Shown here piece by piece: positions 4,079-19,384 of a DNA stretch of 39,186 bases (within the stretch, counting starts at the first letter, position 1; the number at the start of each line of letters is the position of its first letter). Where the stretch lies: the NCBI GenBank assembly GCA_021808105.1, contig JAKBCC010000024.1, forward strand, positions 1 to 39,186. Reading direction: 5' to 3'. The stretch comes from Planctomycetota bacterium (GTDB lineage Bacteria; Planctomycetota; Phycisphaerae; WQYP01). The position numbers were made by a program, and so were the translations under genes. The notes beneath the pieces were generated by a model. It was not told the DNA's origin. It saw only the letters and a list, made by a program, of their open reading frames with translations, and ran no database searches.

Positions 4079-4222
4079 GAGTAATGGCCGCGTTGCGATC
4101 CCGGCGCGCCGGGACGATTTTTAGCGCTCGGCGGGGCATCGCATTAAAGAACACCGCGGTGATAACCCGGTGGTTGGTTCGCGGCATTGGATCAACCACC
4201 GGATTGTCATCCGTGCTCTCGT
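4079..4222 (+). repeat. Composite palindromic repeat R2+R1, copy a
   Basis: The left part is the R2 motif (GAGTAATGGCCG, 4079-4090). The right part is R1, a hairpin with the perfect 10-bp stem CCGGTGGTTG (4167-4176) / CAACCACCGG (4193-4202) and a 16-nt loop, inside a longer imperfect inverted repeat ending near GTGCTC. The same R2+R1 arrangement recurs at 8130-8260. No coding potential is evident. Confidence 0.75.
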
Positions 4223-8052: not shown

Positions 8053-8130
8053 CGTTTGGTCCCGGCGTGACGGAACGCGTCTATGGTGCGCCCCACCACC
8101 GGGATAGCCGGCGGCTATGTGAAGTTTCCG
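8053..8130 (+). repeat. Dispersed repeat R3, copy 3
   Basis: Blocks CGTTTGGTCCCGGCG, TATGGTGCGCC, CCACCACCGG, GCCGGCGGC and TATGTGAAGTTTCC appear in the order seen at 6975-7108 but on the opposite strand. It runs directly into the R2+R1 repeat at 8130. Confidence 0.75.
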
Positions 8131-8310
8131 AGTGATGGCCGGACTGCGACGGCGTGATTTTGGCTTCTTCGCGGAGCATCGCGGCATAGAGCACCGTGGT
8201 GTTAACCCGGTGGTTGGTTGGCGGCACTGGATCAACCACCGGATTACCATCCGGTGCTCGACGAGCGCATTGTGGTTAAAGAACATCTCGGTGACAACCC
8301 GGTGGTCGGC
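8130..8310 (+). repeat. Composite palindromic repeat R2+R1, copy b
   Basis: The R2 motif (GAGTGATGGCCGG, 8130-8142) is followed by R1 with its 10-bp stem at 8207-8216 and 8233-8242, then CATCCGGTGCTC. A second partial R1 half follows (AACCCGGTGGTCGG, 8296-8309). Together with R3 it fills the gap between the regulator gene and NAD kinase; the stretch 7874-8050 shows nothing recognisable beyond the regulator's promoter region. Confidence 0.75.
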
Positions 8311-12753: not shown

Positions 12754-13803
12754 TCAGTGGTTCAACGGCCCGGTGGAATTGCCGGGGGCAAATTCAACGT
12801 CAAACAGGATATTCTGCCGCGGCTCCTCCGGGTTGTCCAGGCGGTGGTGGAGCCTCTGGATCGCGGCTGTACCGATGACTGAAAGTGATACGCCCACGGA
12901 CGTTAACTGTACCACCGGTCGAGGAACCGTATCGGTATTGTCAAAGCCGGTGATAGAGACATCTTCCGGCACACGCAGGCCGGCGTCTCGGACAATTTGC
13001 GCCAGCATCTGCCCGGCCCACTCATTGGTGGCCATCCAGGCGCGCACGCCGGACTTAATTAACTGTAGCGCCTGCTCCGGTGCTGTCGCGGGCACCAGCC
13101 GATGCTCAAACACTTCCGTGCCAAATTCAATGGCCCAGGCCGGGTTTAATTCCAGCCGCAGTTTCGTCATGGCTTCCACGTAGCCAGCATAGCGGGCGCG
13201 TGACCAGGACATGTCACTGCAATAACCAAAATAGCCGATTTTTCTGTGCCCCAGACGGTAAAGGTGCTCCGCGAGAATGTTCATGCCGCCGCGATGATCC
13301 ATATCCACCAGGTCCACTTTAGCACCGGGGTAGAAATGTACCACGGATACGCAGGCAAATTTTTCCGATAATTGCCGCGCTATGTCTTCCGGCCAGCGAT
13401 GCACCAGACACAGGCCCTTGACGCGACCGTCCCGCATGGCCGGTGGCTGGCGGTCCGCATGGACAATATTCAGGCAGTCCTGGAAGGATACATGATGGAC
13501 AATCAGCGTAACGTTCATGGCGGTGGCGGCCTGACTTAAGCCCACGAGATACCGCGTGTGAGTCCAACTGCTTTCCGGCGATTGCACCAAAACGCCCAGA
13601 TAACAGGCTTCCGCCTCGGCCGCCGCCTTTCCGCGAAGCCGCACGGTGTAACCCAGTTTTTGCGCAAGTTTCAATACCCGGTCCCGAGTTTCGGATTTGA
13701 TCCCTGGCTGCTGACGTAAAGCGCGCGACACCGTACCGGGCGCTAAATTAAGCTGCCGGGCAATAAGAGTCTGGTTGGGGGTCTTGGACATGGGAGAAAA
13801 CAT
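12754..13803 (-). CDS. LacI-family transcriptional regulator
   Basis: An N-terminal LacI helix-turn-helix (TLIARQLNLAPGTVSRALRQ) is followed by the hinge region and a periplasmic-binding-protein-like sensor domain; the ending region DVSITGFDNTDTVPRP is typical of the family's C-subdomain. It should bind a short palindrome as a dimer and respond to a sugar or sugar derivative. The frame is open to an ATG at 13980, but those 59 extra residues are low-complexity and precede the conserved start, so ATG 13803 (MFSPMSKTPNQ) or 13791 is preferred; none has a clear ribosome site. It lies just downstream of the pectinesterase gene on the same strand and is the obvious candidate to bind the TGTGCGCACA palindromes in this window, which is inference. 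Confidence 0.88.
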   Translation of the reverse strand: MFSPMSKTPNQTLIARQLNLAPGTVSRALRQQPGIKSETRDRVLKLAQKLGYTVRLRGKAAAEAEACYLGVLVQSPESSWTHTRYLVGLSQAATAMNVTLIVHHVSFQDCLNIVHADRQPPAMRDGRVKGLCLVHRWPEDIARQLSEKFACVSVVHFYPGAKVDLVDMDHRGGMNILAEHLYRLGHRKIGYFGYCSDMSWSRARYAGYVEAMTKLRLELNPAWAIEFGTEVFEHRLVPATAPEQALQLIKSGVRAWMATNEWAGQMLAQIVRDAGLRVPEDVSITGFDNTDTVPRPVVQLTSVGVSLSVIGTAAIQRLHHRLDNPEEPRQNILFDVEFAPGNSTGPLNH

Positions 13804-14023
13804 ACGAGAAGTTCGGGGTTTTTGCAATAGCGGCGGCTCCGCGCGGAAATTAATTGTGACATTTCCATCCGCAGAAGGAAGTTTCAAGCTATCAGGCAAG
13901 CGCGACGAAGAGCCTGTGAAGCTTCCGCCGGACAAACTGTCCGTCGTGTCATGCCCGGGAGGAGAAGATACGTTGTCCATGATTCGTTTCGCTCACGTAA
14001 GGAAGAATATCAGGATCCAGCGT

Positions 14024-15298
14024 TTATAAACGGCGTGCCCGCCGGCCAAATAAAAGCACCAGCGACGCGCCCGCCAACAGCGTGGCCAAGGTCGCCGGAG
14101 CCGGCACGGCGGTGGTGGAAATCTGGGCCAACGGGTTCCAGGTTCCGTTAACAGCAAATGTTCCGGTGTACTGCGAACCCCAGAAAGTCTCCAGGCCAAA
14201 AATATTACTAAGAGTATAATTTGCGGCATCGGAAAGGGGATTTGCGTTTCCCGCCCAGGAGAGTTGGTTGGACCACGGCACCCGCGAAGAAACGTTCAGC
14301 GGCGCGCCCGTGGTGTCCATGCTGTTGTATTCAGAGAATCGCGGACTTTGATTGCCTGGCGTTTCATTGGAGTCAAAAGGAATCCAGCCCTGAGAATTTA
14401 CCACCGGCCCCATTTTCGTATTGATATACGTCACGCTGGCATTGGATGTCTGATATTGCCAGGCCCGTCCAAGAAACGCATTGCCATTTGGCACACCAGA
14501 CTGATAGCCTGGATTGCCGCCCTCGCTGGTCGGAGTCGGGTTGCCCGTAAGCGAAGAATTGAGGAATACAAAGCCAACTGCCGTAGTCGGTGCGGTGTTC
14601 GCAGCGGTCACCACAGACGCCCCGCCCCCACCGTTGCCCGCGCTGTTGAGCGTAGAATTTTGAAACACCGCAGTACCGTTTCCAAACACATAATCCACTG
14701 TGCCGTTGATAAAGCAATTTTGGAAATAGCTGCGACCGTTGGCCAGATACATCGTATCTTGGAATCCGATAAAGTTGCAATTGGTAAACGCCTCCTGATC
14801 GCCCTCGCTTAGAACCGCCGGGGCCTGAACCGTGGCAGCACCGGGTGCCGGTTGGGCAGTCGTATTGGCAAAGGTCACATTCGAGGCCGTAAAATCATTG
14901 GCAAATAAATTTACGGTGCTTGACCCGCCCGTGCCGACCGTTGCGCCATTCACAACGGAATTGGCGTCCAGTCCATATTCAATGACCGTGTCGGCAGCGT
15001 TCGCCCCGCCACCGATGATATCCAAATAAGGTTTATCTCCGGATATCGTGATCTGCTGAGAATCATACACACCGGGCGACAGGAGCAGTCGCGTAGGATC
15101 CGCCGCCGTTCCTGCCGGAGCGACATTAATTGCGGCTTGCAGACTATTAAACGTGTTGCCTTGCGTTACAGCATTCGGGTTGACGTAGTAATCCGTTGCG
15201 GTCGCCAGGGACGGATACATGTTAAAACTTACTGCGGCAATCAGCAGCGCTGCGGCAGTTTGATGTCGTAGAGAGCAGAGATTATTCAATGAGACCAT
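14024..15298 (-). CDS. PEP-CTERM pectinesterase (CE8)
   Basis: Pectin methylesterases remove methyl groups from homogalacturonan outside the cell. The 424-residue protein has a signal peptide (about 1-34), a right-handed beta-helix and the CE8 signatures GFQDTMY (178-184, catalytic Asp181), GTVDYVFG (199-206, Asp202) and LGRAW (276-280, substrate Arg). The C-terminus, VPAPATLATLLAGASLVLLF followed by GRRARRL, is a PEP-CTERM-type sorting signal, so the enzyme is probably processed by an exosortase and kept at the surface or in the matrix; no exosortase is in this window. GGAGGAG stands 9 nt before the ATG. It lies between a LacI-family regulator and a PEP-CTERM protein gene on the same strand, and a strong hairpin precedes it at 15413-15446. 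Confidence 0.9.
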   Translation of the reverse strand: MVSLNNLCSLRHQTAAALLIAAVSFNMYPSLATATDYYVNPNAVTQGNTFNSLQAAINVAPAGTAADPTRLLLSPGVYDSQQITISGDKPYLDIIGGGANAADTVIEYGLDANSVVNGATVGTGGSSTVNLFANDFTASNVTFANTTAQPAPGAATVQAPAVLSEGDQEAFTNCNFIGFQDTMYLANGRSYFQNCFINGTVDYVFGNGTAVFQNSTLNSAGNGGGGASVVTAANTAPTTAVGFVFLNSSLTGNPTPTSEGGNPGYQSGVPNGNAFLGRAWQYQTSNASVTYINTKMGPVVNSQGWIPFDSNETPGNQSPRFSEYNSMDTTGAPLNVSSRVPWSNQLSWAGNANPLSDAANYTLSNIFGLETFWGSQYTGTFAVNGTWNPLAQISTTAVPAPATLATLLAGASLVLLFGRRARRL

Positions 15299-15468: not shown

Positions 15469-16326
15469 TCAAAGGTTTCCGGACCCGCTTCGCCGGCGCT
15501 TGGCAACCACCAACGCCAATCCACCCGCCAGAAATAGCCCCAACGTGGCGGGTTCCGGCGTAGAGGCTGGTGCAGGCTCTATAAGTTGCACAGCGTCTAA
15601 CGATGCAGCGGTGCCGCTGATGTCTTTAAAATTAAGGGTGATATTTCCGTTACTATCGGGTGTGACATTCTGAAAAACCAGATAGTTGACCGTGGTGCTG
15701 CTTGTGGGAGAGGAACTGGTAGAAAAAACATCTCCACCGAGCGTAAAATCTTTGCCGTCCTGTTCACCGGCCTGCACAGCACTGCCGCCGTTTACAGAAA
15801 ACCCGGCGACTTCACCGCTGGTACCGTTAGGCCCATTCCCAAACTGGCTGGCCAAATACGCGACCAACGTATAACTGCCCGTTGGTAGATTTCCAAACTC
15901 GGCGGTTCCGCCGCTACCAAAGGAAATAAGGGACCCCGAGAGCAGCTTTTCCTGAGCGGTCACGGGTGGAGTTTGGGGGTATTCATAGTAGGTCGTAGTG
16001 GCCTGCGTCCCAGCGGAAGAGTACGAAAATGTAATGGGGCTGGTGCTGCCAGAGGAGTCCTTGACAGCCAGTCCCGTTGCCGCCCAAGGATACGTCGTCT
16101 GGGCGGTTGTGCTGGCGTTATGATCCGCAACTTTGATTCCGTTCCAGACGCTCTGCGTATAACCGGCGGCACCGACCACAGAACCATTAATTGGATTATC
16201 CCCCTCACCGTTTGGCGAATCCAGGAACTGCACGCCAATGCTCGTGGCATGCGCTGCGCCTGCCGCTGCTATTACCCCGCCGAATAATGCCGTTACCAAC
16301 AAGGGACTCTTTGATTTGAGAATCAT
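15469..16326 (-). CDS. PEP-CTERM surface protein of unknown function
   Basis: The 285-residue product has a signal peptide (KSPLLVTALFGGVIAAAGAA, cleavage near AHA-TS), a mainly beta, Ser/Thr/Gly-rich central part, and a C-terminal PEP-CTERM signal: TPEPATLGLFLAGGLALVVA followed by KRRRSG. The middle portion (GVQFLDSPNGEGDNPING, then a region on 'sequence without unit length') resembles secreted planctomycete proteins of unknown role. A GTG at 16335 also opens the frame, but AAGGAG is 8 nt from the ATG at 16326, which decides the start. It lies upstream of the pectinesterase on the same strand and may share its transcript, although a strong hairpin stands between them. Confidence 0.8.
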   Translation of the reverse strand: MILKSKSPLLVTALFGGVIAAAGAAHATSIGVQFLDSPNGEGDNPINGSVVGAAGYTQSVWNGIKVADHNASTTAQTTYPWAATGLAVKDSSGSTSPITFSYSSAGTQATTTYYEYPQTPPVTAQEKLLSGSLISFGSGGTAEFGNLPTGSYTLVAYLASQFGNGPNGTSGEVAGFSVNGGSAVQAGEQDGKDFTLGGDVFSTSSSPTSSTTVNYLVFQNVTPDSNGNITLNFKDISGTAASLDAVQLIEPAPASTPEPATLGLFLAGGLALVVAKRRRSGSGNL

Positions 16327-16335
16327 AGTTCTCAC

Positions 16336-16850: not shown

Positions 16851-17621
16851 TTACGCTCTAACGCGGCGGGGCACGCTTTTCTTGCCGCATTGCAACAAGA
16901 ATGATCCAAAACATAATAAGGACCATACAGCGGGTTCCGGCACGGCAAGCGTGTCGCCATACACGCTCAATCCCGGCCCGCTTTGTGCCAGAAAGGTGTT
17001 GCCGGTGCCCAGTTGCAAATTCTGAACATAGTAAACGCCCAGGCCCTGGTACCCGGATATATTTATATGACTCAATGACAGGCCGTTGAAATTCGTGGCC
17101 GGTGCGCCGCTGCCCGTCAGCGGCTCGCCATAAATTAATCCGTCCTGCGCGGCACCGGTCGCGGTAATGCCGTTGAAGCTGATATTTTTCCACAGCGGTG
17201 TGGTTCTGTCGATGGTTGCGGCGGTGACGACCGTGGGGTCGGTGGGAAAATTATCGCTGCCGTGTTCATAAAAACTGGTGATGGCCAGCGGCATGGCGAC
17301 ATTGGTCATGGTGATATTGCTGTAGCTGACATTTTGCACCAAGCCGCCATAATTAGCGCCAGCCTTTAACCGCAATCCATTGCTCGTATCGTTAAAGGTC
17401 ACATTGCTGACGGTCATGCCATTGAGGCCGTCACCAACCGCACCATAATTGGTGACGTTAAATACGGCAGAAGGGATCACTGGCAGCGGTGGATCGGCAC
17501 AAGCGAAATTTGCGGCTGGCAGGGCGGCCGCCGTAAATACTGCGGAAAAAGCGATGATCCGAGGATTGGCCATCCTGCGGTGCAAGCAGACCATCAGCGC
17601 TATTTTATCGGCATTTAGCAT
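16851..17621 (-). CDS. Polygalacturonase-like (GH28) PEP-CTERM protein lacking the catalytic core
   Basis: The mature part opens with FNVTNYGAVGDG, the usual first strand of GH28/pectate-lyase-like beta-helices, then jumps directly to NGMTVSNVTFNDTSNGLRLK and NVSYSNITMTNV, which belong to the C-terminal half of GH28 enzymes. The central block that should hold NTDG, the catalytic Asp pair and GHG is absent. The basic residue of the RIK motif is kept as RLK. The N-terminal hydrophobic signal and the C-terminal PEP-CTERM segment (AVPEPAVWSLLCFGSFLLQ) are intact and the frame is unbroken, so this is an in-frame internal loss, not a random wreck. A GTG at 17663 opens the frame; GGAGG is 8 nt from ATG 17621, chosen here (17627 is possible). 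An operator-like palindrome lies about 100 nt upstream. Hydrolase activity is unlikely. Confidence 0.8.
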   Translation of the reverse strand: MLNADKIALMVCLHRRMANPRIIAFSAVFTAAALPAANFACADPPLPVIPSAVFNVTNYGAVGDGLNGMTVSNVTFNDTSNGLRLKAGANYGGLVQNVSYSNITMTNVAMPLAITSFYEHGSDNFPTDPTVVTAATIDRTTPLWKNISFNGITATGAAQDGLIYGEPLTGSGAPATNFNGLSLSHINISGYQGLGVYYVQNLQLGTGNTFLAQSGPGLSVYGDTLAVPEPAVWSLLCFGSFLLQCGKKSVPRRVRA

Positions 17622-17895: not shown

Positions 17896-18561
17896 ATGCG
17901 AATACTTCTCTATGGCGATTCAATGACTGAATACCTGCATCGGCCCCCGCGCATGCTCACCGATGCGTTACAGGCCCTGCAGCCGGAAAAGTCTTATGAG
18001 ATTTCCAACTGGGCTGTCGGCGGCACCCGGGCGGAATTGGTTTTGTATCGCCTGTTGTATGAATTCTGGCATGGAAGAGCGCGTATGTTGCCTTTAACAC
18101 AAAGCCGGCCCGATGTCCTGGTTATCGAAGCCTGTGCGTTTAACAATGCCAATGATCAGCAGGATGGGATCAACAATTTTAAGCATATCTGGGACCAGAT
18201 TATTAAGGCGTGCCGGGAACACGCCCCTCAAGCGCGGCTGATCACTTATTTGACCATCGGCAGTTCACCGACGGTTCCTGACGAACGGGCTAATCGCCTG
18301 TTCTTCCATGCGTTACCGGAAGTTTTTGCCCTGCGCCATAAGTGGCGGGAAATATATCAGGACGCCTTTGAGCAATGGGCAACAGAAGCGGCAGTAGAAT
18401 GCGTTAATGTGCGAAATGAAGTCCAGCGGCAGGAAGCTCTCGGCGTGCCGCGCCAACACTGGATATCCGCGGACGGCGTGCATCCAAACGCGGCGGGTGT
18501 AGAATTAATATCGCAGAAACTTGCCGCAGCGATTGTGGGTTCTGGAGAAATCATGCCATGA
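17896..18561 (+). CDS. SGNH/GDSL-type hydrolase
   Basis: This 221-residue protein has block I YGDSMT (nucleophile Ser9), a GG pair at 42-43 forming part of the oxyanion hole, a block III-like EACAFNNAN near residue 79 and the block V DGVHPN (193-198) with catalytic Asp193 and His196. SGNH enzymes are esterases, acyltransferases or deacetylases; in polysaccharide-using bacteria many remove acetyl groups from glycans. There is no signal peptide, so it should act in the cytoplasm, and the substrate is unknown. It overlaps the next gene by 4 nt (ATGA), so they are translationally coupled. It is divergent from the polygalacturonase-like gene, and the region between holds an operator-like palindrome and an R2 repeat. 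Confidence 0.85.
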   Translation: MRILLYGDSMTEYLHRPPRMLTDALQALQPEKSYEISNWAVGGTRAELVLYRLLYEFWHGRARMLPLTQSRPDVLVIEACAFNNANDQQDGINNFKHIWDQIIKACREHAPQARLITYLTIGSSPTVPDERANRLFFHALPEVFALRHKWREIYQDAFEQWATEAAVECVNVRNEVQRQEALGVPRQHWISADGVHPNAAGVELISQKLAAAIVGSGEIMP

Positions 18562-19085: not shown

Positions 19086-19089
19086 CGCC

Positions 19090-19246
19090 CAGCTGCCGCC
19101 AGCCAAACACCGAGTTATCACCAGAGTGTTCCATGACGGGATGCTCACCCAGAGCACCGGATGGTAATCCGGTGGTTGATCCAGTGCCGCGAACCAACCA
19201 CCGGGTTATCACCACGGTGCTCCATGACGCGACGACGCTCCGATAG
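19090..19246 (-). repeat. Palindromic repeat R1, copy c (tandem, minus orientation)
   Basis: The 10-bp stem CCGGTGGTTG (19169-19178) / CAACCACCGG (19195-19204) is present, with GGTTATCACCACGGTGCTCC to its right and a diverged tandem half to its left (AACACCGAGTTATCACCAGAGTGTTCC, 19105-19131). It fills the whole gap after the DUF2127 gene. Confidence 0.7.
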
Positions 19247-19254
19247 GCCAAAAC

Positions 19255-19384
19255 TCACGCCCTCGCGACCCGACGCTTACGCAAAAATCTCCCTAAACGA
19301 CCCCCGGCGGACCCAATTAAAAATATAAGTGCGGCGAATCCCCACCAAAAGAGAACCCCTCTGATATTTAACGGAAGGGTCCCG
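19255..19384 (-). pseudogene. Out-of-frame C-terminal membrane anchor of the beta-propeller gene
   Basis: Shifting one base at the propeller gene's stop continues the protein through LPLNIRGVLFWWGFAALIFL and ends in GRFLRKRRVARA: one hydrophobic helix plus a basic tail, the layout of a C-terminal anchor. There is no start codon of its own. It is either a sequencing or assembly indel, a real frameshift mutation, or a programmed frameshift; chance translation is possible. Confidence 0.4.

Follow-up and report, generated by a model that had tools for sequence, protein, structure and literature searches.

An internally deleted polygalacturonase gene

A polygalacturonase-like gene at positions 16851–17621 (minus strand) of the window, the complete 39,186-nucleotide stretch of DNA from an uncultured planctomycete analysed here, has probably undergone a recent loss-of-function deletion in frame, and we regard this as ordinary gene erosion at an erosion-prone locus. 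The first-pass annotation had offered three explanations for the shortened gene: a recent in-frame deletion, a selected pectin-binding or scaffold protein, or an assembly collapse. Recent deletion is the best supported of the three, because full-length orthologues occupy the same syntenic place in related genomes, the join falls on a short near-repeat, and the locus is eroded in relatives.

The gene starts at an ATG at 17621, with GGAGG 8 bases upstream, and its 256 codons contain no internal stop. The Pfam GH28 profile (PF00295) matches the product at positions 196–284 of 324 only (E 1.7e-11); the score of 44.2 bits, against a cut-off of 22.9, identifies it as a GH28 homologue. Using phmmer, solved polygalacturonases were matched to its C-terminal half. 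The Erwinia carotovora enzyme (PDB 1bhe, E 7.7e-9) resembles it there, including the region of the RxK motif, but is a complete enzyme with all catalytic aspartates. At the other end, alignment identified the stretch PPLPVIPSAVFNVTNYGAVG as the conserved start of its GH28 relatives and AVFNVTNYGAVG as the first GH28 strand found in them. The open reading frame, the Pfam match and the orthologue alignment thus bear out the original description of an N-terminal GH28 strand joined directly, and in frame, to the C-terminal half.

The frame, signal peptide and PEP-CTERM tail had also been called intact. The frame is; the other two were recognized by eye. Residues 1–43 (17493–17621, minus strand) resemble a signal peptide and align with the orthologue N-terminus at 64–67% identity. 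The C-terminal tail (16854–16946, minus strand; AVPEPAVW...RRVRA) consists of AVPEPAVW, a hydrophobic stretch and a KK..RR segment, and was not matched by Pfam or NCBIfam PEP-CTERM models at E<0.1. The source genome has two matches above cut-off to the exosortase model PF09721, and an intact PEP-CTERM sorting signal is plausible.

Comparison with full-length orthologues

Full-length orthologues of ~467 aa were found at the same syntenic place in two congeneric genomes, G007 (L010, DAHVEJ010000004.1) and G002 (L011, JAJZJL010000135.1). In both, the gene order is PhoH-like protein, DUF2127, GDSL hydrolase, GH28, PEP-CTERM protein, LacI regulator. Their counterparts in the window, identified by profile searches and by orthologues in relatives, include the divergently transcribed GDSL hydrolase gene (17896–18561, plus strand), used as synteny anchor, and the conserved LacI-type regulator gene (12754–13980, minus strand). 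The window gene shares its N-terminal region and C-terminal half with L010 and L011, at 78% and 64% identity over aligned columns, respectively, while 210 residues held by both orthologues are absent from it. Relative to L010, the closer of the two and our reference for the missing codons, these are codons 63–272 of 467, or 630 bp.

Four motifs make up the GH28 active site: NTD, DD, GHG and RIK (PMC6102391). L010 and L011 hold all four, as SPNTDG, GDDD, GHG and RLK. The window gene lacks NTD and DD, which carry the catalytic aspartate and aspartate pair, as well as GHG, which is also present in L012. The earlier statement that the catalytic region with its aspartates and GHG is absent therefore stands for these three motifs but not for the fourth, which survives as RLK at residues 84–86 (17364–17372, minus strand). 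Because the catalytic residues are lost, the product would be unable to hydrolyse pectin through the GH28 mechanism, and an annotation that relied on a GH28 domain hit would wrongly label the gene an active polygalacturonase. Measured against its intact syntenic orthologue, the gene has lost essential parts, as a pseudogene would. Counting against inactivation, the retained codons are unrelaxed, and the reading frame, ribosome-binding site and tail are intact.

The deletion junction

The join lies at the word GACGGC (17427–17432, minus strand), whose left-side partner in the orthologue is AACGGC. L010 reads GGT-AAC-GGC at the left boundary and AAC-GAC-GGC at the right, and the window gene reads GGT-GAC-GGC; the two blastn blocks share six bases at 17427–17432. 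The join thus sits on an imperfect 6-bp repeat, [A/G]ACGGC. It had been placed between GDG- and GHG-like words, and similar words do flank it, but the right-hand end is not GHG, which sits 9 residues upstream of the break. Illegitimate recombination would be expected to leave a mark of this kind at the join. A deletion that preserves the frame has a one-in-three chance of arising, and selection is not needed to explain it.

These features are best explained by the following sequence of events. The ancestor would have carried an intact exported GH28 polygalacturonase of the kind that congeneric bacteria keep at the same locus. One deletion event of 630 bp, running from one of two short similar words to the other, would then have left the frame intact; replication slippage or another form of illegitimate recombination was probably responsible. 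The alignment places the N-terminal cap helix in the lost segment, along with the first half of the beta-helix and the motifs NTD, DD and GHG. Most likely the gene was thereby recently inactivated at a locus prone to loss.

Could the organism instead carry a full-length gene of which the contig, through misassembly or a mixture of strains, skips 630 bp? The source assembly is in 216 contigs, with 94.6% completeness and 4.2% contamination, and the related G003 and G005 assemblies contain several abrupt deletions in the same region that could reflect poor assembly. On the other hand, the ~6 imperfect bases that the two ends have in common are much shorter than an assembler k-mer, and a repeat of that size is far too short for collapse by a de Bruijn assembler. 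Within the blocks collinear with a 56-kb contig of G007, no comparable internal gap occurs in any other gene of the window; no orthologue-like middle was found elsewhere in the assembly, where the best match, in paralogues, was 50%; and the join is exactly in frame. An assembly collapse is therefore disfavoured, and we consider it unlikely.

Recombination of the gene with a paralogue was also considered, as several GH28 paralogues are present in the source genome. On either side of the join, the best-aligning sequence is the one syntenic orthologue (77–78% DNA identity), whereas the genome's own paralogues are only 34–40% identical in protein. A chimera was rejected on the grounds that one orthologue is matched on both sides, and is highly improbable.

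Selective constraint on the retained codons

The 183 retained codons of four sequences were analysed with a codon model. Omega was 0.10 on the window branch and likewise 0.10 on the branch of the intact sister G007, so that relaxed selection was not seen; omega = 1 on the window branch was rejected (p 0.008). Neutral drift can fill at most ~20–30% of the window branch, as its final part, and ~8% with the window and sister branches equal. Given the low omega and this limit on drift, either the deletion happened recently or constraint still acts on the remnant, and the data do not separate the two. If the gene has been inactivated, the limit on drift implies that this happened recently. Five window-specific changes fall at positions conserved in the other three sequences, and all five lie in the 76 residues that follow the join, a clustering that weakly suggests a loss of constraint close to the cut.

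If still useful, the remnant might be under selection as a non-catalytic protein, exported and anchored at the surface, that binds pectin or acts as a scaffold and presents substrate to the neighbouring pectinesterase. Consistent with this are the low omega on the window branch, the preserved frame, start, ribosome-binding site and PEP-CTERM-like tail, the retained RLK motif, and the intact exported pectinesterase encoded two genes downstream (14024–15298, minus strand; Pfam Pectinesterase E 6.2e-41), which has a PEP-CTERM-like tail of its own. There is also a precedent for GH28 proteins that matter despite being catalytically dead: in leaf beetles, such pseudoenzymes belong to a gene family with demonstrated phenotypes (PMC6549527). 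The likeness extends to GH28-family membership without catalysis; the beetle proteins form a gene family with phenotypes, whereas here there is a single bacterial gene with a large deletion, known from its sequence. Against a selected scaffold, half of the protein is gone, including the NTD, DD and GHG motifs, the five changes after the join hint at lost constraint, and the low omega would be just as expected after a recent deletion. In addition, the form is absent from every relative searched and the short model lacks a GH28 fold match (see below).

Taken together, these data make a selected binder or scaffold improbable. The more specific proposal, in which a surface-anchored polygalacturonase lost its catalytic core and became, under selection, a half beta-helix that binds pectin without catalysis and works beside an exported pectinesterase, appears very doubtful. 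Were it correct, half a beta-helix could act as a carbohydrate binder. Literature searches returned nothing pertinent on inactive or truncated pectin-binding GH28 proteins, and no paper combining polygalacturonase, PEP-CTERM and Planctomycetes.

Predicted structure of the shortened protein

AlphaFold models of the short form and of the full-length orthologue were built from shallow alignments of four and three sequences. The short-form model had a mean pLDDT of 56 overall, with values below 50 over the N-terminal 64 residues and a strand-rich C-terminal half. The first-pass annotation had proposed modelling the fold; with this shallow alignment, a Foldseek search of the PDB gave no match at E<=0.001. 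The model of the full-length orthologue, from an equally shallow alignment, matched polygalacturonases at E 7.6e-14. Foldseek ranked SV2 luminal domain chains highest for the short model, and these hits were dismissed as noise on account of low TM-scores and high rmsd. As far as alignments this thin can indicate, the shortened product probably fails to form the right-handed parallel beta-helix of GH28 enzymes. The predicted fold and the survey of relatives count against the scaffold option, with which the low dN/dS is compatible.

Erosion of the locus in relatives

A search of the genus, family, order and class for the same shortened form, also suggested at the outset, covered 397 genomes of the class and found no comparable short GH28 gene. 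Other matches in these genomes lie in frames of at least 379 aa, bar one of 186 aa on contig C162 of G000, which was rejected as a second short form because it runs to the end of the contig.

More severe losses were observed at the locus itself in G001 and G003, two further congeneric genomes. In G001, GH28 survives as a 37-codon tail and the pectinesterase as ~40 N-terminal codons, with the PEP-CTERM gene beside them intact. In G003, a 29-codon GH28 tail remains, although this genome is a fragmentary assembly and hence provides weaker evidence of erosion. The GH28 breakpoints differ between G001 and G003, which points to separate deletion events, with the same caution about the G003 assembly. 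If the window gene was recently inactivated, one locus shows the intact, internally deleted and stub stages of pectinase loss, and offers a clear snapshot of that process in a poorly studied planctomycete lineage. The source genome has nine GH28 matches including the shortened gene, and six of the nine lie in open frames of 457–768 aa. With other GH28 genes present, the organism may be able to do without this one.

Other features of the locus and window

The pectinesterase gene lies intact between the PEP-CTERM gene and the LacI gene of the window; G007 and G002 have none at the locus. The PEP-CTERM protein of unknown function encoded beside GH28 (15469–16335, minus strand), recognized by Pfam/NCBIfam PEP-CTERM models and by its position in relatives, comes in two diverged versions, both at this position. 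The window and G001 share one version (89% identical), and G007 and G002 carry the other, ~39% identical to that of the window. This suggests an allele-like replacement.

In G005, a single open reading frame (L061, contig C36, 283–972) combines pieces of the PEP-CTERM protein and the LacI regulator, the latter in two separate parts. Several in-frame deletions in series would account for it, with short repeats at some joins, and it is either real or an assembly fault. A 3474-bp stretch carrying an adjacent GH28–pectinesterase pair is 100% identical in G002 and G020 (L053, 5469–8942; L033, 1–3474). As these genomes are assigned to different genera, this suggests misbinning or very recent transfer.

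An Rfam search of the window gave no match. A dispersed repeat of ~140 bp occurs in the window at 4131–4218, 8127–8265, 19089–19146 and 19152–19266, in copies that are 81–87% alike, and also on contig C161 of G001. It has an imperfect palindromic core (GAGCACCGTGGT...CATCCGGTGCTC) and resembles a REP or MITE-like element.
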